From: Bacteroidota bacterium
GTDB taxonomy: Bacteria > Bacteroidota > Bacteroidia > B-17B0 > Aurantibacillaceae
NCBI GenBank assembly: GCA_030681615.1
Contig: JAUXSA010000112.1
Location: 1 to 50,106 of the forward strand
Reading direction: 5' to 3'
Length of the DNA stretch: 50,106 nucleotides
Part shown: piece after piece, positions 1-43,522 of the stretch
How positions within the stretch are numbered: the stretch's first letter is position 1
Layout: each line of letters opens with the position of its first letter
Program-made: the position numbers and the translations under genes
The notes under the pieces: model-generated
Database searches by the model: none
Told to the model about the DNA's origin: nothing
Seen by the model: only the letters and a program-made list of their open reading frames with translations

Positions 1-2337
1 CCTGATCTCTGCGTTAAAATTACCCTTGCCGCCGTATATAGGATAACCTCCTTCGGGCGTTTGACGAATAAATCCGAGTGAATAATCTTTTTGTAAAGTA
101 AGCACCTCTCTAAAGGAAGGAAAAATTCCTGCAGAAGAAAACGTTCCATCAAAACGCAGGGCTTCGTTCCTGAAATTGTCCAAACTATCAATAGCAAAAG
201 GGTCAAGTTTAAAATAGAATTTATCTTTACCATAAACGCCTTTAAAAATAGAACGTTTATCATAAAAGGCATAACTCTCTTTAAAGCTTTGAAACGAAGG
301 GAAAGTAGGCGCACGTCCCCAGCCGCTTTTATTCTTGGGCGCATCAATGCGCAACTCTCCATTTACATTCTCAATTAAGGTTTGTACTTTTTTAAACGGA
401 ACATTACCGTTCACATCCGGCTCAAAGGCTTCAACATATATTTTAATAGAATCAATGGTTTTCATCTTCACTTTAAACTCATCATAATCAAAAACAAAAT
501 CTTTTCCAATAAACTCAAACTTTCCGGAAGATAAGGTGCCATTAAAATCTATCTGCCTGTTCTTCTTTAATACCAATTCTCCATTTTTTGGGAACATAAA
601 AACCTTTTGGGTATCACTTAGCAATACCTGCTTAACCCCTCGAACCGTTAGATCATAATTAAGCAAATTTAACGTGGCGTTATCTTTAACGTTAGAGACA
701 GTATCGTAACCTTTTGTTGAAGAATTTTTTGTTTGGGTAACGGAGTGTAATGTAATAATGTCATAATCGTGTTTGTGTTTTAAATTGTCAGCATAGTCAA
801 ATAATCGCTGCCTTACTTTTATAATATCTGTTTCGGGATCGTAATAAATTAAACCGTAAATGGCCATTTTAAAAATAATAGGTCTTAGATCTACTGCCAA
901 AAATTTAATGTGCTTGGCAAAATCAACCGTAGTGAACTGGGCTGGCTTATCATTTGCATTATAATACTCTATCATTTTTGAAATGGGACTAACCGTTTCG
1001 TTACCCCTGATACTCTCGGCCTTAGATCTTGTATAAAAGTCGGTCGATTCAAAATAAGCTTCGCCCTGAAAATTATTCGGTAAAAAATTAAAAGCCATTA
1101 AAGGCTCATCTAATTTCCAGAGTATTTGTTCAAAATACATATCGTATTTGTGAAAAGAGTTAGAGAAAGGTGTTTTTTGTAACCCATCATCGCCTCTTAA
1201 AATAGTTACAAGGCGCTTATCTACCTGGTAAGTAAAACTTAAGCCAGGATGATAAATAGTATCTTTATTCAGAAAAAACTTTACAGTTCCAGGATTGGCC
1301 ACTATTCTGTCTTTGCTCATCCCAAATGAACGCGCACTTATCTCTAAAAATTTTACACTGTTTCTTTTAAAAATAATACGGGCAGGGTTGCTGTTGGTAC
1401 CCGAACCTACAAATTTTGGTCCGCGCATACCAAAACCACCATCGTAGTCCACATCCGGATAAATATTTTTTACAACTAAACGTTTACTGTAAGAATCAAA
1501 ACGCGGATAGCTTAACTCTCCATTTTCGGTTATGATCCTGTCTGAGAAACGACCAACCTGCGCTTTATCAAAAAATTGTTTACCTACAAAGGTGGCTGTA
1601 TCACTGCCATAGTTACCGGTTTTACAATCAATGGTGTAACGTTTTATTGTGGCATATACATCTTTATCCAGGCCGCAACGTTCCCAGCTTATTTTACCAC
1701 CTTTTCCAACAAAATTTCCAACATTGGGGTAAAAGGTTCCGTTGGTTTCTTCGATGGCAATACTATCACCGCGTGGGTTTACACCAATCAGCGTTATATC
1801 TTTAAAAATAATTTTTGGTATGGTATCGTAATCAAACTTATAGTTTGGCTGGTAAGAGTAATAAATATACGAGGGGGTTTTATAAAAGGCATTATACCTG
1901 AACATGTTTTCGCCTAAAACAATAAGTTCCTGAACACCCCCAATTGATTTTTTAGAAAGGATCTTCGTTAAACATAAATGCCAGTTTTGAAAAGTTTCGG
2001 TAGCTAATTTTTTTTCAAGAGCGGTGTATAGGGCTGTAAAATAACCAGTAATAAACGGGTTTGGTTTTAAACGTTTAGCAGCCATTAAATTACAGATCTT
2101 AATGGTGGCTTCCTTATAATAACCTGCTATATAATTCTCTTCCCAATATCTGGCAAAGGTTCGCATATAGGTTTCAGCTTCTAGCCTGTTGGATGTATTT
2201 TCAATAAAATAATTATTTAAGTCGTTAATGAATTTTACAGTATCATTTGATAATTGACTGCCCTTTTGAGAATAACCAAAAAAAGATAGAAGAAAGAAAG
2301 TTATAAGCAGTAATTGTTTTTTGAACCCGAAAAGCAT
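1..2337 (-). CDS. Large secreted protein of unknown function (partial, C-terminus beyond left edge)
   Basis: The minus-strand frame beginning at ATG 2335-2337 stays open to the first base, giving at least 779 codons with no stop, so the C-terminus lies outside the window. The first 23 residues form a clear signal peptide: Lys pair, hydrophobic run, then GYSQ before the mature chain. I do not recognise a named family. The first 150 or so mature residues look helical. The rest is rich in short beta-like segments, including a stretch near residues 590-640 with alternating phrases such as FNGTLSSGKFEFIGKDF that recalls AsmA/TamB-like beta repeats; this likeness is an inference only. Upstream, 183 bases separate it from the divergent SiaB-like gene, so it is probably transcribed alone from that gap. 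An envelope or surface role is likely; the function is unknown. Confidence 0.75.
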   Translation of the reverse strand, partial: MLFGFKKQLLLITFFLLSFFGYSQKGSQLSNDTVKFINDLNNYFIENTSNRLEAETYMRTFARYWEENYIAGYYKEATIKICNLMAAKRLKPNPFITGYFTALYTALEKKLATETFQNWHLCLTKILSKKSIGGVQELIVLGENMFRYNAFYKTPSYIYYSYQPNYKFDYDTIPKIIFKDITLIGVNPRGDSIAIEETNGTFYPNVGNFVGKGGKISWERCGLDKDVYATIKRYTIDCKTGNYGSDTATFVGKQFFDKAQVGRFSDRIITENGELSYPRFDSYSKRLVVKNIYPDVDYDGGFGMRGPKFVGSGTNSNPARIIFKRNSVKFLEISARSFGMSKDRIVANPGTVKFFLNKDTIYHPGLSFTYQVDKRLVTILRGDDGLQKTPFSNSFHKYDMYFEQILWKLDEPLMAFNFLPNNFQGEAYFESTDFYTRSKAESIRGNETVSPISKMIEYYNANDKPAQFTTVDFAKHIKFLAVDLRPIIFKMAIYGLIYYDPETDIIKVRQRLFDYADNLKHKHDYDIITLHSVTQTKNSSTKGYDTVSNVKDNATLNLLNYDLTVRGVKQVLLSDTQKVFMFPKNGELVLKKNRQIDFNGTLSSGKFEFIGKDFVFDYDEFKVKMKTIDSIKIYVEAFEPDVNGNVPFKKVQTLIENVNGELRIDAPKNKSGWGRAPTFPSFQSFKESYAFYDKRSIFKGVYGKDKFYFKLDPFAIDSLDNFRNEALRFDGTFSSAGIFPSFREVLTLQKDYSLGFIRQTPEGGYPIYGGKGNFNAEIR

Positions 2338-2520
2338 AAGTAAAAATTATTTAACCAAATATAATTAATCAATTAGGTAATTAATAATAAATTTAAATTT
2401 TTTAGTTGATTTGGGTGAATTTAGGCTTGCAAACTGTAGAACCCAATTTGAGCAGTAAAATGACCCCACTTTACAACTTAATTTTTATAATTTGCAATAA
2501 TATTGTATGTTTGATTGATT

Positions 2521-3645
2521 ATGCAGATAACTAATAGCGGAAAATATTCGTCTATAGCCGAATTATTTAGAGTATTAAACCATTATCAATTAAACTATGC
2601 ATATAATGGCGACTTCACTAACGACCTTACCGAACGTATTTTAGCCCTTGCCGAAACCAACATGGATGTGGAAAGCGAGAGCTTAAAGATCAAAAAAAAG
2701 GTGTATTTTATTATTGTTGAATCGCTTCAAAACATTACCAGGCATCAGGGCAGCAGTAAGGACGCGCGTTTAAGGGATGGTTTTTTCTCTATTCATAAAT
2801 TTTTAGGTGGATACCTTGTAGGTTCAGGAAATGAAATAGAAAATGACCATATTAAACCTCTTTCAGAGAAACTTGATAAAGTAAATTCTTTAAGTCAGGA
2901 TGAATTAAAAGAGTACCAAAAGGAGGTTTTAAGTGCAGGAGGTTTTTCTGAAAAAGGAGGCGCAGGCCTTGGCCTGATAGAAATGGTGAGAAAGAGCGGC
3001 AATAAATTGCAATACCATTTTGATAAGATAGATGAGAAGAACTCTTATTTTTATTTTCAATCAAAAATTACGGATGCACAGCCACTCGAAAATTCTGAAA
3101 TCGAAAAGCATAACCATGAAATAGTTAAAAGTGTACATAAAGCTGTAACTGAAAATAATTTAAAGATCTTTTTTCAGGGTCAGTTTAAACATGAAAATGT
3201 TCGAAGCTTGTTATCAATGGCGGAAGGAAGTATTTACCTGACCGAAAAATTTGGGTTTAAAAAAACATCGGTTGCCATTATGATAGAGCTGCTTCAAAAC
3301 ATAAGTTATCATGCTGCCGGTATTAATAATAGTGATGAACGACCGGGACTGTTTATGGTTGCTGATAACAATAATGTGTGTTCACTTATTACCGGAAACT
3401 ACATTGAGAACATTAAAATTGATGCGGTGATAAAAAAGATCGATTTTGTAAATTCGTTGGATAATGCTGCTATTGAAAAATTGTATCTGGAAACAATCGT
3501 GTTGGATAATAATGAAGTAAAACAAGGTGCCGGGCTTGGATTTATTGATATAAGAATAAAAAGTAAGAATAAGATAGAGATTGAAATGGTGCCCTACACT
3601 GATGACAAGACCTTTATAATTATAAAAGCAAATATTAGTTATTAA
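2521..3645 (+). CDS. Tandem SiaB-like protein kinase (two fused SiaB domains)
   Basis: The 374-residue product consists of two copies of a SiaB-type (DUF6272) GHKL-like kinase domain, about residues 1-185 and 190-374. Copy 1 has an N-box ESLQN (67-71) followed by H75 and a glycine box GGAGLGLIEM (about 146-155). Copy 2 has ELLQN (256-260) with H264 and QGAGLGFIDI (about 335-344). The key residues therefore recur about 189 residues apart, and both halves keep the ATP-lid glycines. Known SiaB proteins are single domains of about 180 residues that phosphorylate the partner SiaC. ATG 2521 is preferred over an in-frame TTG two codons upstream. The SiaC-like gene follows after 4 bases, so the two are almost certainly co-transcribed. 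I infer a cytoplasmic Ser/Thr kinase of a partner-switching pathway; whether both halves are active cannot be seen. Confidence 0.8.
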   Translation: MQITNSGKYSSIAELFRVLNHYQLNYAYNGDFTNDLTERILALAETNMDVESESLKIKKKVYFIIVESLQNITRHQGSSKDARLRDGFFSIHKFLGGYLVGSGNEIENDHIKPLSEKLDKVNSLSQDELKEYQKEVLSAGGFSEKGGAGLGLIEMVRKSGNKLQYHFDKIDEKNSYFYFQSKITDAQPLENSEIEKHNHEIVKSVHKAVTENNLKIFFQGQFKHENVRSLLSMAEGSIYLTEKFGFKKTSVAIMIELLQNISYHAAGINNSDERPGLFMVADNNNVCSLITGNYIENIKIDAVIKKIDFVNSLDNAAIEKLYLETIVLDNNEVKQGAGLGFIDIRIKSKNKIEIEMVPYTDDKTFIIIKANISY

Positions 3646-3649
3646 AAGT

Positions 3650-4021
3650 ATGGCAATATTAGATTTAGATTCCACCGAAGATTTACCTTGTGTATTATTT
3701 GACAGTGAAAAAGGTATTTTTGAGATCTCAAAACGTTCTCTGCCCGAAAATGCAATTCTATTTTATGAGCCATTGATCAATTACGTTAACGAGTATCTAA
3801 GATCGCCTAAAGAGGAAACGAATATTGTTTTTCATTTTGATTATATAAGCACATCTTCAACAAAGCAGATCATGAAGATGATCATGCTTTTCGATCAGCT
3901 TAAACAAAGTAAAAAAGTTAATTTAAACTGGAATTACGATAAGGGAGATGTGGATATGCTGCAAACAGGAAAGAGGCTGGAGCAGTTAACCAGTATGAAG
4001 TTTAATTTTACGGAGATTTAA
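3650..4021 (+). CDS. SiaC-like regulatory phosphoprotein (DUF1987)
   Basis: The 123-residue product matches the SiaC/DUF1987 family, a small STAS-like fold that acts as the phosphorylated partner in the SiaABCD switch of Pseudomonas. The segment FDYISTSSTK places a threonine at residue 68, the position I recall as the phosphorylated Thr68 of SiaC; this agreement comes from memory of the family and not from an alignment. The gene begins 4 bases after the double SiaB kinase, and its stop overlaps by three bases the stop of the convergent PP2C phosphatase. Kinase, substrate and phosphatase thus sit together. The downstream target is unknown: Pseudomonas uses the diguanylate cyclase SiaD, and no GGDEF protein is encoded in this window. 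Confidence 0.8.
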   Translation: MAILDLDSTEDLPCVLFDSEKGIFEISKRSLPENAILFYEPLINYVNEYLRSPKEETNIVFHFDYISTSSTKQIMKMIMLFDQLKQSKKVNLNWNYDKGDVDMLQTGKRLEQLTSMKFNFTEI

Positions 4022-6219
4022 ATTTTAAAACCAACAATCAGCACATCATCAATTTGTTTGGAATCGCCTTTCCATTCGTCAAAAGTTTCTTCAAGCATAT
4101 ACCTTTGCTTTTCAACTGAAAGTGTATGTATTTGTCCTAATAATTTTTCGTAACGCGAGGTTAAAAATTTCTTTTTCGATTCTTCGCCTATCTGGTCCAC
4201 ATACCCATCGGTAGACATATAAACCATTACTCCATCTCTTAGATCTAATTCAGCCGAAGTGATCTTTTCAGTTTTATCTATCGCAAAAATGCCGTTAATA
4301 GAGCTGATCTGTGGTTTAATTTCTTTTGTGTTATAATTATCTACAATATAAATGGATTGGTTGGCCCCTGCAAAAAATAGTTTTTTAGCAAGATGATCGA
4401 TCTTACAGATAGAAATATCCATGCCATCTGTATTTAACTCTTCCTTTTCTTTATTTACCAAAGTGCCAGAAAGACCTGTTGCCAATGAATTAATGATCAA
4501 TGCCGGGTCGTGAATTTTTTTATGGATGATGATCTCGTTAAGCAAAGTACTGCCCACCATACTTAAAAAAGCGCCAGGCACGCCATGGCCTGTACAATCC
4601 GCAACAACAATAAACGATTCGTGACCTTGTTTAGAGTACCAGTAAAAATCACCACTTACAATATCTTTTGGAATGTAGGTAATGAATAAATTAGGTATAT
4701 GCGCCGTAATTTCATCTTCTGAAATTAAAATAGATTCTTGTATGCGTTTGGCATAACTAATACTTGAAATGATCTGGCTTTGTTTTTCTTCTACCAGATT
4801 TTTTTGACGTTCAACTTCTAATTTTTGAAGCGTGATAATTTTATTTGCTTTTTGTTTGTGCTGGTTGCTTCTAAAAATAAATATGGCAAGTATTACCATA
4901 AAAATAAATGCTACAATAAATAAATTCAGTAATGCTTTTTGTTTATCGTTTATTTGTTTGGCCGCGTCCTGTTTTCGTTCTTGCTCTAATTTGGTAAGAT
5001 TTTCTTTTTGATCAAACTCATAATTCATTTCGGCACGAATGCTTTTTTCAGTATCTATGAGCTTTGTTAAACTATCCCTGTACTGTATATACATTTTATA
5101 GTTTTGTAAAGAAGCCCGATGATTACCCATTAATTCTTCCAGCTCTGACAAATAGTCGTACGACTGGCTTATGCCCTCTACCTGGCCGATCTTTTTATAT
5201 AATTGTAATCCAGTATTGAAATATTTTTTTGCCTCCTGCGCATTTCTGGCCCTATCTGCCGAAGATCTTTTTGCTTTCGACATAAATGAAACACCAATGT
5301 TTGAATTTATTAAAGCTAACTCTCCCTGGTTACCAATTTCCTCCAAAATTTTTAATGCTTTGAATTGTGTGGCAAACGACTTATCAAAACTGCCCTGCAT
5401 TTCGTAAACATTAGAAATATTTAAATAGGCAATGGCAACGTTCCGGTTGTTTTTAGATGCTTCGGCAATCTTTAAAAATTTAAAAAAGTAATCCAGCGAC
5501 TCCTCAAATTTACCCTGCTCCGCATATACTGTTCCAATATTTGAATAAGAAATGCCCATGGTGGATTTATCACCTATTTCGGTACTTAATTTTAAAACCT
5601 TGTTATAATACTCAAGCGATTTATTATAATTCTTTTGCCTGTCGTAAGTAATGCCCAGGTTGTTATAAATGGTAAGGATCTCATCTTTATAATTAACCTC
5701 GTCAATTAATTTTAAAGCCCTATAATAATGATCCAGTGAGGCTGCAAAATTATCCTGGTAGTTATATAGCTCCCCTATTTTGTTAAGGCATAAAGATGTT
5801 TTGTAATTGTTACCGATCTCTTCCCTTAACTTTAATTCCTTTTTGTATTGCGATAAAGCATTTGCATAATTTTCCTGGTTCTCAAATGTGTAAGCAATGC
5901 TTTGGTACGAATTGGCCAACCAGTTCTTCGAAACAGAAATATCTAAAGCTGCCACTAATTTTTCGGAAATTATTTTTGCGATACTGGCGTATTTAATGGC
6001 TTTACTATAATCCCTTAAACCTACATACTCTTTACTTAAACTAATTAAAGTGCTAATTCTTACAGTGTCATCCAGGCTGGCCGATGAAGATTCGGCATTC
6101 AGTGTTTTTATAACAGATTGTAATGAATCGATCGCATGGTTTTGCGCGCTTAAATTCTCTTTTTCGAAAAAGAAAAAAAGACAAAAAAAACAAAGTATAT
6201 TTTTAAAAATAAGTTTCAC
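4018..6219 (-). CDS. TPR / transmembrane / SpoIIE-type PP2C phosphatase (SiaA-like role)
   Basis: The product has 733 residues. A signal peptide or N-terminal anchor (1-26) is followed by about seven TPR repeats (60-390, with recurrent phrases such as NNLGITYDRQKNY), a charged coiled coil, one transmembrane helix (429-449), a second coiled coil (455-495) and a SpoIIE/PP2C domain (500-732). Metal-binding acidic motifs are intact: DIVSGD (519-524), ADCTGHG (D541), DGMD (598-601), STDG (D671) and IDD (724-725). This layout suggests a periplasmic TPR sensor controlling a cytoplasmic serine/threonine phosphatase, and the facing SiaC-like protein is the obvious substrate. Pseudomonas SiaA has a different sensor region, so only the role is equated. 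The start is GTG 6219, since an in-frame stop lies two codons upstream. Confidence 0.85.
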   Translation of the reverse strand: MKLIFKNILCFFCLFFFFEKENLSAQNHAIDSLQSVIKTLNAESSSASLDDTVRISTLISLSKEYVGLRDYSKAIKYASIAKIISEKLVAALDISVSKNWLANSYQSIAYTFENQENYANALSQYKKELKLREEIGNNYKTSLCLNKIGELYNYQDNFAASLDHYYRALKLIDEVNYKDEILTIYNNLGITYDRQKNYNKSLEYYNKVLKLSTEIGDKSTMGISYSNIGTVYAEQGKFEESLDYFFKFLKIAEASKNNRNVAIAYLNISNVYEMQGSFDKSFATQFKALKILEEIGNQGELALINSNIGVSFMSKAKRSSADRARNAQEAKKYFNTGLQLYKKIGQVEGISQSYDYLSELEELMGNHRASLQNYKMYIQYRDSLTKLIDTEKSIRAEMNYEFDQKENLTKLEQERKQDAAKQINDKQKALLNLFIVAFIFMVILAIFIFRSNQHKQKANKIITLQKLEVERQKNLVEEKQSQIISSISYAKRIQESILISEDEITAHIPNLFITYIPKDIVSGDFYWYSKQGHESFIVVADCTGHGVPGAFLSMVGSTLLNEIIIHKKIHDPALIINSLATGLSGTLVNKEKEELNTDGMDISICKIDHLAKKLFFAGANQSIYIVDNYNTKEIKPQISSINGIFAIDKTEKITSAELDLRDGVMVYMSTDGYVDQIGEESKKKFLTSRYEKLLGQIHTLSVEKQRYMLEETFDEWKGDSKQIDDVLIVGFKI

Positions 6220-26572: not shown

Positions 26573-28879
26573 TTAGTTTCTTACAACTCTGTAATAAGAA
26601 TTTCTGTTATTGTTAGTTACGTTAATAAAATAAACGCCAGTACTTACATTTGAAAGGTCAAGTGTTTCGTTAAGCTCTGTTTTATTATTATATTGCTTTT
26701 GTACAATTACTTTACCTAAAACATCAATAACTTTAACTTCTGTTACACTTTCTGATTGTAAATTTCCTACGGCAAAATTTACCTCATTATTAAATGGGTT
26801 TGGCCACACTGCCAAACCAATGGGATTATTCTGTGAGAATGAATTTAAACCAACGTTAATAGAGATCTGGAAATTGTTATTGCTAACATCATAAAATATA
26901 TTTCCTTTAGATTCAACTTTGATCCTACAGGTTGTGATACTTGCACTTAAAGTAGGCGCAGTAATTAATTCTGTACCATCATTAGGTGTTGAACCTAACA
27001 AAGTACTATAAGTTGTGCCACCGTTATAGGAGATCAATACTCTAACAGAGTCGCATGAAACAGGCGCAGCATTCGTTCCGTTTACAGCCCATGTAATTGT
27101 TTGCGGTGTACCTACACCCCAGATAATACCAGTTGCATCGGGGTATGTAACAGCTAAAGGACCCGCTGTGCCGGAAACAGTTACGTTATTGATGGCGTAA
27201 CAAACGCCTCCTCCGCCCATTTTATTATCGCGGGCAGTTAACCTGAATTGTAAAGTTTGTTGAGTTGCAGGTACGTATTCTCCTTTTGTACCAGTATAAT
27301 TTCCACTTAATACAACACTTTGTTTAGGGAACATACGTGAAGGCGTTGGAGTAGGAGTATAAGACATAAAGTAATTTTTGTTACCTGAATTCCAATTACC
27401 TGCAACCCCAAGGTTTGTTTCTTCCCATGAATAAGTTAAAGCATCACCATCTGGATCCAAAGCACTTCCGGTTAAAATAAACGGTGTAGATTTTGGAACA
27501 ACATAATTGCCTGAGCCTGTAACTACCGGAGGTTGGTTACCTGTTGTAGTTGTAACAGGGCAAATGTTACCGCTACCGCCATTTGTAAAATTAACGATCT
27601 CATCGTAACTAATAGCGTGAAAATAAGCAATGCTGTTTGGAGCAAGGTCCTGAGACCCACAAATACCAGCATATGCCATAATGGTAATACCGCTACCAGG
27701 TTCAACAGCAGTTGAAGCATTTCTGTTTCCACCACCACAACTACTAACCGTTGAATTAAAAGTATGATTGCCGGCAAACTGGTGCCCAACTTCGTGAGCT
27801 ACATAATCAATATCATACGGATCGCCAACCGGACTTGGACTTCCTGTAATACCACGCGCTTTATTAGAAGTGCTACATACACAACCTAAATTTGCTAAAC
27901 CGCCGCCACCGGTGCTAAATGTGTGGCCAACATCGTAATTTGCAGAACCAATATTAGCTGTTATTACAGTTTGACTTTCTCCAATTAAAGTGCCCGCACT
28001 ATTATTTCCATTGAATGGATCGCTTGCAGCACTGGTAAATACAATCAAAGTTTCAGTAGCTACCAGAACTAACCTTACCGCTACTTCTGTTTCGTAAACA
28101 CCATCTACACGGTTAACACTTGTAACAATTTTTGCTAAAGTTTGAGCAACAGTTGGTGTAGTAGAACCTGTTGCGGCTACAGCATATTCGCCAGTACAGG
28201 CAACTGCTAAACGATAAGTTCTTAATTGTGCGCCAACACATACCGCAGGCGGTGGCATACTACTTACCGCTGCTTCGTTTTCGCCTTTTTTTTTAGGCGA
28301 AGTTGACGATTGTGTTTTTTCAGGATCGGTAATAACACCAACTTCAGGAAGTTTTTGAGATGGATCTTTTACAAAATCTGCGGTGTAATAGGTGATATAA
28401 TCTTTTAGATTCTGCAAACAATATGGATCTATAAAATAATCACCGTTAATAGAACGTACCATGCCATGAAAACCAAATTCAGGTGTCCAATCTAATTTTC
28501 CGTTTGCGTAAACATCATCAATACCTTTTATACTATATGTTTTAATATCCGGAAATTGTGCTGCTAAGCCTGGTTCCATAATAGGACTTTCAACAACTTT
28601 AAATTTTTGAATAGTTCCATTCGGTAAGGGTAAGGTTATGATGCATGTACTTTGATTTATTCTCACATTTTTTTCGTGCGGAGCAGAAAGCAATTGTGTT
28701 TTAAGATCGTTACCATTTAATTGAAAAGCCAGATATTTATTTGGCACTATCTGTCTTTTTCCGGATTGGGTAATTGCCGATTCACTAATTGGCGACCAGA
28801 ATTTATCATTATTACTTTGGGCGTTAATACCAAAGGACAAAAATAAACTTAGGGATAATAAAAGTGTAGTTTTTTTCAT
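26573..28879 (-). CDS. Secreted M12/reprolysin-like zinc metalloprotease with T9SS sorting domain
   Basis: The 768-residue product has a signal peptide (1-20, ending GINAQ), a propeptide-like region (21-210), and a metzincin catalytic domain (about 215-440). The zinc motif HEVGHQFAGNH sits at 362-372, followed by a cysteine-rich stretch and the AYAGICGSQ turn with the nearby methionine (ITIMAYAG) as a candidate Met-turn. After it come beta-sandwich modules (about 450-680) and a C-terminal T9SS type A domain beginning VWPNPFNNEV and ending YFINVTNNNRNSYYRVVRN. It should be exported through T9SS and either anchored or released. The substrate is unknown. The gene stands alone, with a good promoter upstream. 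Confidence 0.88.
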   Translation of the reverse strand: MKKTTLLLSLSLFLSFGINAQSNNDKFWSPISESAITQSGKRQIVPNKYLAFQLNGNDLKTQLLSAPHEKNVRINQSTCIITLPLPNGTIQKFKVVESPIMEPGLAAQFPDIKTYSIKGIDDVYANGKLDWTPEFGFHGMVRSINGDYFIDPYCLQNLKDYITYYTADFVKDPSQKLPEVGVITDPEKTQSSTSPKKKGENEAAVSSMPPPAVCVGAQLRTYRLAVACTGEYAVAATGSTTPTVAQTLAKIVTSVNRVDGVYETEVAVRLVLVATETLIVFTSAASDPFNGNNSAGTLIGESQTVITANIGSANYDVGHTFSTGGGGLANLGCVCSTSNKARGITGSPSPVGDPYDIDYVAHEVGHQFAGNHTFNSTVSSCGGGNRNASTAVEPGSGITIMAYAGICGSQDLAPNSIAYFHAISYDEIVNFTNGGSGNICPVTTTTGNQPPVVTGSGNYVVPKSTPFILTGSALDPDGDALTYSWEETNLGVAGNWNSGNKNYFMSYTPTPTPSRMFPKQSVVLSGNYTGTKGEYVPATQQTLQFRLTARDNKMGGGGVCYAINNVTVSGTAGPLAVTYPDATGIIWGVGTPQTITWAVNGTNAAPVSCDSVRVLISYNGGTTYSTLLGSTPNDGTELITAPTLSASITTCRIKVESKGNIFYDVSNNNFQISINVGLNSFSQNNPIGLAVWPNPFNNEVNFAVGNLQSESVTEVKVIDVLGKVIVQKQYNNKTELNETLDLSNVSTGVYFINVTNNNRNSYYRVVRN

Positions 28880-36534: not shown

Positions 36535-36607
36535 GGCACCGTAGTTCAATGGATAGAATAGAAGTTTCCTAAACTTTAGATGCAGGTTCGATTCCTGCCG
36601 GCACCAC
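36535..36607 (+). tRNA. tRNA-Arg(CCT), with a defective-looking acceptor stem
   Basis: A cloverleaf fits: D-stem GTTC/GAAT, anticodon stem GAAGT/ACTTT with loop TTCCTAA giving anticodon CCT, variable region of four bases and a perfect T-stem GCAGG/CCTGC. The acceptor arms read GGCACCG at the 5' side and CGGCACC at the 3' side; pairs 1-72, 2-71, 5-68, 6-67 and 7-66 form, but 3-70 is C-A and 4-69 is A-C. The 3' arm would pair fully if it read CGGTGCC. No CCA is encoded, as usual for the phylum. A tyrosine recombinase gene follows 260 bases downstream, so the 3' part may come from an integrated element. Confidence 0.85.
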
Positions 36608-36868: not shown

Positions 36869-38302
36869 ATGGCAACAATTCATTTTTATCCCAGATTTGA
36901 CCGACCAATAAAAGACGGTTCGGTAACTGTTTGTTTAATGTTTTCATTAAACCGAACACAACGACTTAAAATCAGTACAGGAAAACTTATTCCTCTAAAA
37001 AAAGAATATAGCAAACTTACACTTGAAGAAATACAAAAAATCCCAATCGAAAAAAGAGAAGAAATGTACTATTGGGATTTTCAAAAAGAAAGAGCGATAA
37101 AAGGTTTTGCCGGATGGGAAAATTTAAACAACCATTTAGATAAGGAAAAGGTAAGAGCGAACGATGTAGTATCCAAATTTGAATACAGAGGTAGGCACTT
37201 AACTCTTGAGTTATTTAAAAATGCCTTTTCAAAAATAAGCGCAACAGATAATTTTAAAGAATACTTTACAGCACAACTTGAGCAAAGAAAACATCTGATT
37301 TCCAAAGAAACCTATAAAGGATACAAATCAGTGATAACCAAAGTAGATAATTTCAAACCGAATGTTACAATTGGAAATATTGATTATCGTTTTTTAACCC
37401 TGTTTGAAAATCACATGCTTAAACCTATAATTGATGACGGTCTTGGAAACATTCAAAGTACCGTTTCAAAAACCATGAAATCAGTCAGAGCCTTAATTCA
37501 AATTGCTATTAAGAATAATGATTTTCCAAAAGAGGCTTACCCCTTTATTGATTATAGAATAAAGCATGTAGATCCTTTATTAACCTCTAGGGACTACTTA
37601 GAGCCTGAAGATCTGACAAAAATAGAAGAATTGCTTTCACCTGAAAGAATCTCAGAGTTGACAATAGGTGAAATAAAAGCTGTAAAACGGTTTTTATTTG
37701 GGTGTTATACAGGATTAAGATTTTCTGATGTAAATAACTTGTTTAGGAGTAAACATATTTTTGCAAAGTGGGTTCATAATCCACAAACAAAAGAATCGCT
37801 TTATAAACATTACATTGAATTAAGGATGGGAAAAACGGATCAACCGGTTTTCATACCACTTATTGATAAAGCTCTGGATTTAATTAATGAAGCAGATGAT
37901 GATAAAATATTTGAGACAATATCAAATCAAAAAATAAATAAACATCTGAAAAGCATTAATAAAAAAGCCAAATTAGATAAAAAACTATCTTTCCATGTCT
38001 CCCGACACAGTTTTGCTACAATCTGCTTTTTATATGGAATACCAGAAAAAGTTGGGCAAAAACTTTTAGGCCATAAAAACAGGAAATTTACTGAGATATA
38101 CACGCACCTATCTCAAAATAAATTGTTTTATGAAATGGATAAGTTAAATAGAGGTTTAAGCCACTATGAATTATTAGTTGATGAAACAAATGATAAGAAA
38201 ACAAATATGAAAGAAATTATGCCAATGCTTCAAAATTTAAGCCAAGATAAACTAGAAAAAATCAAAGACTTGATTAAGTTAATTAATGGAAAAGCTGCAT
38301 AA
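36869..38302 (+). CDS. Tyrosine recombinase / integrase
   Basis: The 477-residue product has an N-terminal arm-binding region (1-120), a SAM-like core-binding domain (about 125-225) and the catalytic domain (about 240-420). Catalytic residues are visible: R284 in TGLRFSDV, K322 in MGKTDQP, H376 and R379 in HVSRH, H402 in LGHKN and nucleophile Y411 in IYTHLSQ. A helical C-terminal tail (420-477) extends beyond the usual end. All six catalytic residues are present, so it may be active. It points away from the tRNA-Arg, the standard layout for a tRNA-integrating element of Bacteroidota. A 38-base region with the TGTGTACCC repeats lies upstream. Confidence 0.92.
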   Translation: MATIHFYPRFDRPIKDGSVTVCLMFSLNRTQRLKISTGKLIPLKKEYSKLTLEEIQKIPIEKREEMYYWDFQKERAIKGFAGWENLNNHLDKEKVRANDVVSKFEYRGRHLTLELFKNAFSKISATDNFKEYFTAQLEQRKHLISKETYKGYKSVITKVDNFKPNVTIGNIDYRFLTLFENHMLKPIIDDGLGNIQSTVSKTMKSVRALIQIAIKNNDFPKEAYPFIDYRIKHVDPLLTSRDYLEPEDLTKIEELLSPERISELTIGEIKAVKRFLFGCYTGLRFSDVNNLFRSKHIFAKWVHNPQTKESLYKHYIELRMGKTDQPVFIPLIDKALDLINEADDDKIFETISNQKINKHLKSINKKAKLDKKLSFHVSRHSFATICFLYGIPEKVGQKLLGHKNRKFTEIYTHLSQNKLFYEMDKLNRGLSHYELLVDETNDKKTNMKEIMPMLQNLSQDKLEKIKDLIKLINGKAA

Positions 38303-39592: not shown

Positions 39593-42500
39593 TCAATTTA
39601 GTATAACTAATTTCTCGGTTTTTTCTGCCTTTTGATTTTCAGTATTGAGAATGGCTAATTTATAAATATAAACGCCTCTACCAAGCTTATCACCAAATTC
39701 GTCTTTTCCGTCCCAATCAATGCCTTCAGGCCTAAAGCCTTCGCACGTTACATTTTTTTGTATGGTTTTTACATTTTTTCCACTAATAGTAAAAATTTGT
39801 ATAGTTATCTTTAATGGATTACACGCTTGATTGTGTTCTAAGAAAAATTTAGTATTTGTGGTAAACGGGTTAGGGTAATTTAACACTCGTTTTAATGCTA
39901 ATTCTGCGCTAGACGCTACTATAAAATCAGAGCTGACAATTGCAGAGTTGTTTTGGATATCCCAAGCTTTAAATGTAAGGCGATGAGTTCCTTCAGCTAA
40001 CTCTTCAAACGGAAATCGCACCTTGCCACTTTGATAACTATTTAAATTAGCCTCGTAATAATCATTTAATACAATAGGCTTACTGGTATTCTCGTCTAAA
40101 ATAACGGTTATATCATGACCAATGCTAGACCCCAATGTATTAATTCCACTCGAATCAGAGAGGCTAGCATACATAATAGGTTTTTCATTTGTAGTGCCGC
40201 CATTTACAAAACCTTTATCATTTAAGTACACTGATAGTTGCGGAGGCTCATTATCAATGATTGGATTTTTTGCACTACCACCAACTTTTACATTTTTAGT
40301 ACTGCCTGCCGCATCCACTATTCCATTAGTTGCATAATAACTGATTTTTCCCGGCCCAATGGCAAAACTAATGTCTTTTGGAACGATAAATGAAAAAGAA
40401 AAATCTCCATTCTTAACTTGTGCTTTACCTCGATATAAAATATTTTTTTGGAGATTGAAAGTGAAGGGATTCCCTGGCGAAGACATATACGAATCAGCAT
40501 CATTTAATAAACATGTGATACTTTGCTCTTTATCAAAAACAGTTGGATATACAATACCATTAAAATTAGATAATTTGTTGCCAGAAGTATCTGCAATAAA
40601 ACCGGTTATTGTTACTTTGGCTAAAGCTGAAATAGTATCGACACTTGATGATGTGACAATATTATTATTGATCTTAGAGGTAATTACTTTTTGTTGTGGA
40701 TACGCTAAAGGCATTGCGGGGTCACCAATTAGGTGAAAATTAGCGTAATAAATTGATTGACCCAAAATTGATTTTGTCTTCTGAAGAATATCGCCCAATG
40801 CAGGCATTTTTCCGGTTGGAAGTTTTTTAAACAGATTATTCATTAAAGTAGTATTTAATACAAAATTTGTAGATGAAAACGCTAAACGGCATGTCGTTAG
40901 TAATGCAATAGAGCCTCCTTTAGGATTTAATAAACAAAGTTCGCCTGCCGAAGTTCTATCAGGGTCATCATAACGACTAAATTCACAAGTTGCAGTTATA
41001 AAAAGAGGTAAATTATTAAAATTAGTTAATCCATTAATTACCGGCACATCTAAAATTCGTTCACCAGTAATCCCTACTTCACCGCCATGTCCAGTATAAT
41101 TAATTAGTAATGCCCCTTTTTTAAAACGTCTTAAAAGGTCTTGTGCAGCGTCCGGTATTCTTTGTCCCCCTGGAGTAGAAAATTGTTGATAGGCATCTAA
41201 ATAGATTTTATCAATATTATAGTTAGGATAACCAAATTGAATAATATTAGATAATTGATCAGCCTGACTCATGTGAGTAGATTGATCTTCATCATCAGCA
41301 AGATAAACCAGCCAATTCCTCCAATCACCCATTGCCGAACCTGTTATTGCATTGCAATTTTCAGGAACCGCGTCCTGAATTTTAAAATTAGGGTCATTTT
41401 TGTAATAATTTTCGATTTTGTCAACAACATTTATTACTTCCTGCAAATTTTTACAAGTTAATCTTCCAACCCCAATATCAATACTTCCAACGCCTTCGGC
41501 GTTAGCACCTTCATTAAAATCCATTAATCCATAAAAATCATCAACAGTTGTACTATTTAAAAATGATTTTGAGTCGAATGTTTGATACGTAGGAATTAAA
41601 TTTGTATTTGTTAAAATGTTTCTATTAATATTATTATACGAACCATCGCCTACCAATGCGACATATTTTACCTGTTTCCCGTTAGAAATATTTCTGCTGT
41701 ATAACATCCTAATAAAATCTCTAATTCCACAAACATCGGGTCTTCCGCTACTAAATTCATTATAAATTTGATCGATGTTTGCAACAACATAAGATAAACC
41801 TTCTTTTTGCTGATGCAGTGAAGCTAGGCGTTGTGCTTGGGCAATAAACAGTGGATGTGTTATTAAAACATAATCCGCTTGTTGAAGATTATGCAAGTTT
41901 TGATTTGTCACTTTCGAGACAAAATTTGGTGTATAAAAATCTATTCCAGGAGAAAGTGCATAAGTATTTAACGAATCAGCATTAGCTATAAACGTGATGG
42001 TATTGCCGCTGTTAATATATTGTTGCGCATAGGGGTTAATTGGATCTGTAACATTCCATAATAGAGGAGTTGTTGACAATGGATTTGTAATGCTAAAACT
42101 ACAAGTATTTCCTAGTGCCGAAACTCGTGTATCCCTAAATTCAAATTGTTTTAATGTAATATTTAGTTTTCTTCTCGCATTAATAGTTATTTTATCGAGC
42201 CACGCAACACAATTTGCTGTTTGCTTTGAAATATTTAAGCTTATTGCGTTCGGATCGTTTAAAAGACCTTTACCAATCTTACTTTGAACATCGACATAGT
42301 CTGCCAAATAATTATTTATATTAACGGGGCCAGTACTTAAGGTGTAATTTAAACCTGCTCCACTTATTTGATAGGTTCCTCCTGAAGAACCTCTCCCTGC
42401 CATTGTTACTTCAGAAATAATTGTATCTCCAACAATAAAATCCCCGTCATTCCAGTTAAACCCATAGTTTGTAGTAATATCAAAATACTCTCCATAAAAC

Positions 42501-43522
42501 TGACGGCCACTTTTTACAAAATTAATATGATTGCTTTCGGAAAAATTATAGTAATCAAATGAAGTAGTAGTAATATTTGGAATTAAAATCGACGAAGGCG
42601 ACGATTGTATTCTTTTACCCAATCCTAAGTTAACATTAATAAAATAAAAGCTTGTATCACTATACAAATTTTTATCGTGTCTGAATTTTAGACCGCTAAC
42701 TGATTTAGTATTAGTCCAACCTGTTGCATTGTTTGCATAAAACAAAACATAATCTGTATCGTCAAAACTACCGTCGTTTTCTCCAATTACTTCTATTGCA
42801 TTTTCTTCAAGGTCGTCATATCTAAATGCTGAATTTAATTCTGGTAGCATTCTACCACCATTTCCATAAATTCGTATATTTTTTGGATTTAAATTAGAAA
42901 AATTCACGCCAATTTTCGCTAAAAACGCTTTATCGATCTTATGAAATCCCGTGCGAGTGACACCAATCTTAAACCATTCTCCAGTAGCTAAAACTGAATT
43001 GTTTTTAAAAGCAGAAGAATTGTTTAATCTCCGTATATTATCATTTGTAATTTGCCAATTAACACTATAATCAACTAGTTCTTCAAGCTGATTTAAACTA
43101 TTTAATCTAAAAGGAATTAATTTATGTTGATTCAAATTTTCATTCTTACATAAACTGGGAGTAGAAATCACTTCAAAATTTTGAGTTAAGAATTTAAAAA
43201 ATTGTTTTTTTAAAATAGTTGCATGTGGCTCCATTACAACTTCAGTTTTTTTAACTACTAAAGTCGGGATCGCATTTTGATTATAGTTCGTGGTTTTTGA
43301 AATAATGTAAAAAGGAAAATTATTTCTATTCGGATCGTACTGTCCATTTTTTATTTCAACTTTTAATAAAACCGTATCGTTTTCAGTGGAGGCAACAATA
43401 TTTGAATTGATTGCTTTGGGAGCTTGTTCAATATTTAGCTCTTGCCCAATTTTTTTTTGACTAAAAAAAGAATTGCAAATCATTAAAAAGAAAACAAAAA
43501 AACAATTTCTAAGCATATTCAT
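39593..43522 (-). CDS. porU: Type IX secretion system sortase PorU
   Basis: The 1309-residue product has a signal peptide (1-21), a large beta-rich N-terminal part (22-560) and a gingipain-like C25 peptidase domain (about 560-960). Catalytic residues are visible: H812 in YTGHGGEVG and C846 in TATCEFSRYDDPDRTSAGE, 34 residues apart as in known PorU (H657 and C690 in Porphyromonas). Late immunoglobulin-like modules and a FlgD-like C-terminal domain (NYPNPF...GIDWDGKDEFGDKLGRGVYIYKL) end the chain. PorU removes the sorting domain of cargo and joins the protein to surface lipopolysaccharide. The usual partner gene porV is not next to it. It is the last gene of a minus-strand surface-protein block. 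Confidence 0.93.
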   Translation of the reverse strand: MNMLRNCFFVFFLMICNSFFSQKKIGQELNIEQAPKAINSNIVASTENDTVLLKVEIKNGQYDPNRNNFPFYIISKTTNYNQNAIPTLVVKKTEVVMEPHATILKKQFFKFLTQNFEVISTPSLCKNENLNQHKLIPFRLNSLNQLEELVDYSVNWQITNDNIRRLNNSSAFKNNSVLATGEWFKIGVTRTGFHKIDKAFLAKIGVNFSNLNPKNIRIYGNGGRMLPELNSAFRYDDLEENAIEVIGENDGSFDDTDYVLFYANNATGWTNTKSVSGLKFRHDKNLYSDTSFYFINVNLGLGKRIQSSPSSILIPNITTTSFDYYNFSESNHINFVKSGRQFYGEYFDITTNYGFNWNDGDFIVGDTIISEVTMAGRGSSGGTYQISGAGLNYTLSTGPVNINNYLADYVDVQSKIGKGLLNDPNAISLNISKQTANCVAWLDKITINARRKLNITLKQFEFRDTRVSALGNTCSFSITNPLSTTPLLWNVTDPINPYAQQYINSGNTITFIANADSLNTYALSPGIDFYTPNFVSKVTNQNLHNLQQADYVLITHPLFIAQAQRLASLHQQKEGLSYVVANIDQIYNEFSSGRPDVCGIRDFIRMLYSRNISNGKQVKYVALVGDGSYNNINRNILTNTNLIPTYQTFDSKSFLNSTTVDDFYGLMDFNEGANAEGVGSIDIGVGRLTCKNLQEVINVVDKIENYYKNDPNFKIQDAVPENCNAITGSAMGDWRNWLVYLADDEDQSTHMSQADQLSNIIQFGYPNYNIDKIYLDAYQQFSTPGGQRIPDAAQDLLRRFKKGALLINYTGHGGEVGITGERILDVPVINGLTNFNNLPLFITATCEFSRYDDPDRTSAGELCLLNPKGGSIALLTTCRLAFSSTNFVLNTTLMNNLFKKLPTGKMPALGDILQKTKSILGQSIYYANFHLIGDPAMPLAYPQQKVITSKINNNIVTSSSVDTISALAKVTITGFIADTSGNKLSNFNGIVYPTVFDKEQSITCLLNDADSYMSSPGNPFTFNLQKNILYRGKAQVKNGDFSFSFIVPKDISFAIGPGKISYYATNGIVDAAGSTKNVKVGGSAKNPIIDNEPPQLSVYLNDKGFVNGGTTNEKPIMYASLSDSSGINTLGSSIGHDITVILDENTSKPIVLNDYYEANLNSYQSGKVRFPFEELAEGTHRLTFKAWDIQNNSAIVSSDFIVASSAELALKRVLNYPNPFTTNTKFFLEHNQACNPLKITIQIFTISGKNVKTIQKNVTCEGFRPEGIDWDGKDEFGDKLGRGVYIYKLAILNTENQKAEKTEKLVILN

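Follow-up and report, generated by a model that had tools for sequence, protein, structure and literature searches.

Introduction

In Pseudomonas aeruginosa, according to published reports, the kinase SiaB is a single-domain protein that pairs with itself and phosphorylates the small protein SiaC at T68 (PMC7647112; PMC7278518), a complex of the type 2SiaB:2SiaC has been described (PMC7647112), and the phosphatase SiaA reverses this phosphorylation, the unphosphorylated SiaC activating SiaD (PMC7647112; PMC7278518; the eLife SiaC-SiaD paper). Here we describe a related locus in a 50,106-nucleotide stretch of DNA from a Bacteroidota bacterium of the Aurantibacillaceae (GCA_030681615.1, contig JAUXSA010000112.1; hereafter the window), in which the kinase carries two SiaB domains in one chain. 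The window takes up an entire contig, one of the 199 that make up a 4.28 Mb genome estimated to be 97.79% complete. Among other partner-switch kinases, SpoIIAB and RsbW, acting with SpoIIAA and RsbV, are GHKL serine kinases with a small-substrate logic; they are single-domain proteins and bind sigma factors. To our knowledge, partner-switch kinases other than SiaB are single-domain, self-pairing proteins. What is unexpected is less the one fusion than the repeated occurrence, and the asymmetry, of SiaB domain pairs, whether fused or separate.

The original prediction, made from the DNA letters alone, was of a partner-switch module of the SiaABC type whose SiaB kinase is double, and it is supported by domain profiles and gene order. 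Three open reading frames (ORFs) lie where it had put them, encoding a tandem SiaB, a SiaC and an opposing PP2C phosphatase:

2521-3645, forward strand: tandem SiaB kinase gene, 374 aa from the ATG (profiles, self-alignment, AlphaFold2 model)
3650-4021, forward strand: SiaC family phosphoprotein gene, 123 aa (PF09345, E 8e-30, 103.4 bits against a cut-off of 24.5)
4018-6219, reverse strand: TPR-transmembrane-PP2C phosphatase gene, 733 aa, resembling SiaA only toward the C terminus

The SiaC gene begins after four intervening bases past the kinase gene, and the 3' end of the phosphatase gene overlaps it by 4 bp on the opposite strand.

Results

The Pfam family PF19788 (DUF6272) matches the tandem protein in two stretches with a whole-protein E-value of 6.7e-63, the two halves scoring 126.9 and 93.5 bits against a curated cut-off of 26.6, so that the second half is itself SiaB-like. 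The NCBIfam model SiaB_fam_kinase (NF038262) likewise matches in two stretches (E 2.8e-64; 215.9 bits for the whole protein, cut-off 85). The N half aligns with the C half at 27% identity and E 3e-16, which argues that the internal repeat is not due to chance. The ORF, which extends over 2515-3645 on the forward strand and encodes 376 aa with a possible TTG start at 2515, has an identical length in seven related genome records, and the fusion is therefore not an assembly or frameshift artefact. Counted from the ATG, the N-boxes (E67 to N71 and E256 to N260) and the ends of the glycine boxes (G151 and G340) are where they had been placed from the DNA alone. The parts of the kinase are as follows:

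2584-3060, forward strand: N-terminal SiaB domain, predicted catalytic half (domain bounds, conservation)
2719-2733, forward strand: N-box of the N half (E69 to N73 in TTG numbering), aligning with the E and N of P. aeruginosa SiaB
2959-2973, forward strand: glycine box GAGLG of the N half (conservation)
3085-3111, forward strand: short linker joining the halves (model residues 189-197 in ATG numbering, predicted local distance difference test score (pLDDT) below 50)
3151-3624, forward strand: C-terminal SiaB domain, predicted partner half (domain bounds, structure match)
3286-3300, forward strand: N-box of the C half (E258 to N262; conservation)
3526-3540, forward strand: glycine box GAGLG of the C half (conservation)

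These motifs were followed in 65 distinct tandem proteins gathered by similarity and family searches, a non-random set which includes the window protein and seven near copies. In the N half the E and N of the N-box are present in 65 and 64 of the 65, and G151 and G153 in 65 and 64; in the C half both N-box residues are found in all 65, the equivalents of G151 and G153 again in 65 and 64. The whole nucleotide core (E69, N73, N106, G151 and G153) is intact in 64/65 N halves and 63/65 C halves, and in 49/55 single SiaB proteins. The AlphaFold2 model of the window protein has a pLDDT of 81.9 and a predicted template modelling score (pTM) of 0.81 (36 sequences), with the same order of helices and strands in both halves, and a model of the second fusion type described below has a pTM of 0.84 (31 sequences). 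These values suggest a defined packing of the two halves in one chain. The C half (model residues 198-372) matches P. aeruginosa SiaB (PDB 6kko, chain A) with a VIA-align Z of 15.2 and a root-mean-square deviation of 2.5 over 166 aligned residues; the list of structure matches says little about the N half, which is assigned to SiaB by its profile matches.

The SiaC protein matches P. aeruginosa SiaC (6kko, chain C) at E 2.3e-8, and two of its residues are relevant here:

3851-3853, forward strand: SiaC T68, predicted phosphosite, aligning with T68 of P. aeruginosa SiaC
3680-3682, forward strand: SiaC D11, acidic in most tandem-partnered SiaC and K in most single-partnered SiaC

Position 68 is S or T in 56/56 tandem-partnered SiaC proteins. 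Position 11 is D or E in 53 of these 56 and, conversely, K in 47/53 single-partnered ones. The split would fit insulated kinase-SiaC pairs, but this trait changed only once on the SiaB tree and thus amounts to one independent pair. With an acidic SiaC residue 11, SiaB residue 76 is R or K in 51/53 N halves, 8/8 singles and 7/7 downstream genes of the unfused pairs introduced below, and in only 4/7 upstream genes; with a basic residue 11, it is H in 49/54 singles. A salt bridge between SiaB residue 76 and SiaC residue 11, marking the N half as the substrate-binding one, was considered and rejected as evidence, given the single change at SiaC residue 11 and the place of column 76, which comes only fifth or sixth when columns are ordered by mutual information. 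We retain the pairing only as a hypothesis and clade marker.

The phosphatase gene faces this pair, and its PP2C domain has the expected acidic motifs:

4030-4623, reverse strand: SpoIIE/PP2C domain, residues 533-730, with motifs SGDF, ADCTGHG, STDGYVDQ and DDV
5584-5787, reverse strand: best TPR_12 stretch, residues 145-212 (five TPR_12 in all; Pfam profile)

The putative transmembrane segment was read by eye from the sequence. NF038263 (prot_phos_SiaA) matches residues 465-733 only, at 163.5 bits and below its cut-off of 700. The TPR sensor had been singled out as different from that of Pseudomonas SiaA; different it is, but it is not special to this locus, since elsewhere in the genome two further SiaC loci lie next to PP2C genes with TPR-like N-terminal parts (judged by eye).

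Known SiaB had been taken to be a single domain, which holds for the characterized Pseudomonas protein, while the double form recurs in Bacteroidia. In a class-wide draw of 395 Bacteroidia genomes (up to five candidates scored per genome; tandem alignment match at E <= 1e-68), 61 genomes matched, spanning 30 of 196 genera and 22 family codes. Fused SiaB proteins elsewhere in Bacteroidota, left by the original prediction to be looked for, were thereby found in 60 genomes, those in which the match spans both halves; that in the remaining genome, G452, covers positions 111-363 only, and that in G108 contains a TAA. When the proteins of 41 related genomes were searched, four other genomes of the same genus had full-length matches of 80-95% identity and four more had such matches at 43-44%. 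Conversely, a phylum-wide draw found both halves in only 2/296 genomes, which counts against a wide spread; it scored up to six candidates per genome, the genomes given were of very high quality, and we think that it was skewed toward other lineages. In the open-access literature searched we found no tandem SiaB in print, and the claim is limited to that literature.

Neighbours were counted for the 56 tandem genes with more than 5 kb of locus, the nine with less being left out. A SiaC gene lies directly downstream on the same strand in 47/56, a count made with some loci near contig ends (131 bp downstream in L160) and with L152 missing the SiaC criterion by 9 bp. A PP2C gene lies within 3 kb in 40/56, the first one being on the opposite strand in 29 and on the same strand in 11; the chance of meeting one within a span of about 8 kb is around 12%, as estimated from this genome alone with its 64 PP2C matches. 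When the 351 ORFs that lie no more than 5 kb from a tandem gene were clustered, with the eight window-group loci counted as one, no near-universal neighbour appeared besides SiaC and PP2C; the widest other cluster covers seven loci, which all belong to families f4 and f10 by code, and two clusters cover five loci each in mixed families. In some loci phosphatase and kinase share a chain. L151 (5322-9944, reverse strand), from one relative, encodes a 1540-aa chain that combines Reg_prop (propeller) repeats and Y_Y_Y with PP2C and two SiaB domains, SiaC following after 5 bp, while L108 (5655-8837, forward strand) and L109 (5954-9148, forward strand), from the window's genus, encode TPR-PP2C-SiaB chains of about 1060 aa. 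Such PP2C-SiaB fusions support the idea of a phosphatase and a kinase acting on one switch.

Adjacent but unfused SiaB genes occur at seven loci, in five genomes of the same genus and one other, with a gap of -17 to 8 bp; all seven pairs are followed by SiaC, and in six a PP2C gene precedes the pair on the same strand. The history of the pairs was examined in trees built by a quick method with SH-aLRT supports. One tree, of 88 domains, was built from representatives below 50% identity; nine tandem loci on long branches were left out of it, as were three loci with a single SiaB, of which one belongs to the window's genome. In this tree the 19 N halves of the window type make up a clade (support 99), and so do their 19 C halves (83), with the same division into 6 and 13 members on both sides. 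Because the two clades mirror each other's subgroups, one old fusion followed by joint inheritance is the simplest reading of the sequences. It is weakened by a tree of 126 domains, in which the C halves fall into two groups; a tree of 238 domains requires three changes for N and two for C. Two fused proteins of family code f16, L079 and L080, fall outside the window type. Their N half groups with 4/7 upstream genes of the unfused pairs and their C half with 6/7 downstream genes, at supports of 99 and 98 in the 238-domain tree and of 98 and 99 in the 88-domain tree, where the single SiaB L119 also joins the downstream group. This grouping of fused halves with separate adjacent genes indicates that a second fusion, or a fission, happened.

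Upstream of the kinase gene lies one further feature of the locus:

2506-2513, forward strand: promoter -7 candidate TATGTTTG, fitting TAnnTTTG, 7 bp before the ATG at 2521

TAnnTTTG we take to be the Bacteroidota -7 promoter consensus. TATGTTTG is found in 7/8 related sequences, the eighth having TAAGTTTG, and since this promoter-like element, kept among relatives, ends 7 bp 5' of the ATG at 2521, it suggests that this ATG is the start codon, with a very short leader.

The genome as a whole contains 64 SpoIIE/PP2C matches, 63 of them over the cut-off and some being fragments or pieces of one gene. It has five SiaB domains in four genes, seven SiaC, one STAS match and 14 HATPase_c_2 matches (six over the cut-off), one of which is a strong, short RsbW-type match. 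PP2C phosphatases thus far exceed SiaB/RsbW-type kinases and switch proteins. Elsewhere in the window, 1-2337 (reverse strand) encodes a protein that is truncated at the contig end and has 779 aa or more; its start looks by eye like a signal peptide, and it has no Pfam match at 1e-5. A protein of 1309 aa with a Peptidase_C25 domain (39593-43522, reverse strand) is possibly PorU of type IX secretion, and a Por_Secre_tail metalloprotease is encoded at 26573-28879. A tRNA-Arg at 36535-36607 is followed by a phage-integrase family gene at 36869-38302, this stretch being a possible integration site.

Discussion

We favour, at roughly even weight, the reading that the working unit is an asymmetric SiaB pair, present in the window as a covalent intramolecular pseudo-dimer with a catalytic N half and a partner C half. 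The N half would phosphorylate T68 of the adjoining SiaC, and the C half would keep its ATP pocket, complete the dimer and perhaps tune it, having drifted at residues that are not part of the nucleotide core. The TPR-PP2C phosphatase encoded opposite would take the phosphate off SiaC upon a signal, and the unphosphorylated SiaC would act on a target other than a GGDEF enzyme of this genome. PF00990 finds no SiaD-type GGDEF domain in the window's genome (estimated 97.79% complete), whereas 8/14 control genomes match; the output differs from that of Pseudomonas. An intramolecular dimer, or a catalytic half with a partner half, was among the possibilities raised at the outset; these ideas gain some support from the pTM values of 0.81 and 0.84, and from the unfused adjacent SiaB genes with degenerate partners in some.

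The asymmetry appears first in the rates. Mean pairwise identity among the 65 tandem proteins is 0.39 for N halves and 0.32 for C halves, N being above C in 1849/2080 pairs; the C halves thus diverge faster. They also often lose K132, R159 and K160: R or K stands at 159 in 64/65 N halves against 39/65 C halves, and K or R at 132 in 62/65 N halves and 54/55 singles, the C halves having K there in 20/65 and D or E in 26/65. In columns well conserved in single SiaB, and with weighting to about 31 lineages, 13 differ clearly between the halves, seven of them relaxed in C (145, 148, 158, 159, 160, 161 and 169). All seven downstream genes of the unfused pairs carry K76, K132, R159 and K160, while 6/7 upstream genes depart, in some cases conservatively, at one or more of these positions. 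In two of the seven pairs, from related genomes, the upstream gene is without GxG and H77 beside an intact downstream gene, and in a third, L181, the upstream G151 is S. The former two, L182 (6403-6963, reverse strand) and L183 (6147-6707, reverse strand), are pseudokinase-like SiaB genes without a glycine box which overlap the downstream SiaB by 17 bp. Just such a combination of a competent and a degenerate kinase would be expected of an asymmetric pair.

Several observations weigh against this reading. The other six of the 13 columns (43, 71, 104, 105, 156 and 178) are relaxed in N, G105 being kept in 25/65 N against 59/65 C halves, so that on the alignments each half is seen to have lost different residues; in no more than 34/65 proteins is the N half the one nearer to single SiaB. 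The packing of the halves is read from the pTM alone and so is model-based. Among the unfused pairs, the upstream gene L179 retains every residue checked, and the two upstream genes without a glycine box group apart from the other upstream genes in the 88-domain tree. Furthermore, unfused pairs degenerate in the first gene, whereas the window type drifts faster in the second half, and hence the polarity of the asymmetry is not fixed. The C half, which keeps the ATP core, may be fully active.

It is chiefly the six columns relaxed in N, and the grouping of only 4/7 upstream genes with the N half, that hold the asymmetric pair at even weight and lend some to a symmetric double kinase, in which both halves would phosphorylate SiaC equally and the fusion would merely tie the usual SiaB homodimer. 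We regard this as possible, though on the unlikely side: the nucleotide core intact in 63/65 C halves and the reported 2:2 complex (PMC7647112) fit it as well as the six columns do, but the faster-evolving C halves often lose K132, R159 and K160, and some unfused pairs have degenerate partners. It appears improbable that the tandem protein is a two-input or two-substrate kinase, with a C half that is directed at another SiaC paralogue or recognizes a different ligand. The genome does have seven SiaC against four SiaB genes, with 4/7 SiaC on contigs without a detected SiaB, and at residue 76, next to the N-box, the window protein has R in its N half and Y in its C half; the single SiaC directly after 47/56 tandems speaks for one substrate. 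A duplication without functional consequence, its C half decaying, would account for the faster C-half evolution, but is very improbable given the core motifs kept in 63/65 C halves and the low dN/dS in the few usable pairs of the window group (medians 0.029 for N and 0.038 for C from 5 and 11 usable of 28 pairs, dS being saturated), where both halves appear to be under purifying selection.

Returning to the asymmetric pair, a wider and more tentative proposal is that Bacteroidia have a class of partner-switch kinases in which kinase and partner form an obligate pair, with two or more fusions, or a fusion and a later split, in its history and with one SiaB domain demoted to an ATP-binding or pseudokinase regulator, in a network of some 60 PP2C domains against a handful of SiaC without cyclic di-GMP. 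The findings suggest that signalling through SiaC forms a large network in Bacteroidia. In a covalent diverged pair the halves can be mutated singly, so that the need for both protomers is directly testable.

Among known systems, SpoIIAB and RsbW are alike in being GHKL serine kinases with a small-substrate logic, and their chains match the C half at Z 9.7-10.7; no sigma factor was found as a near-universal neighbour within 5 kb of the tandem genes, although distant partners are possible. The closer likeness is to P. aeruginosa SiaABCD, with which the locus has in common the kinase, a SiaC with T68 and a PP2C phosphatase. Neither protein reaches the narrower models of that system, the tandem SiaB scoring 97.2 against 225 bits for the equivalog NF038264 (biofilm regulation kinase SiaB) and the window SiaC 61.7 against 150 bits for NF038265 (biofilm regulation phosphoprotein SiaC). 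The phosphatase gene of the window lies on the opposite strand, and a TPR region replaces the SiaA sensor. P. aeruginosa SiaB itself (6kko; DUF6272/NF038262) shares with the C half its fold, an N-box and glycine box, and an adjoining SiaC; it is a single domain, whereas the window protein brings two diverged SiaB domains together in one chain.

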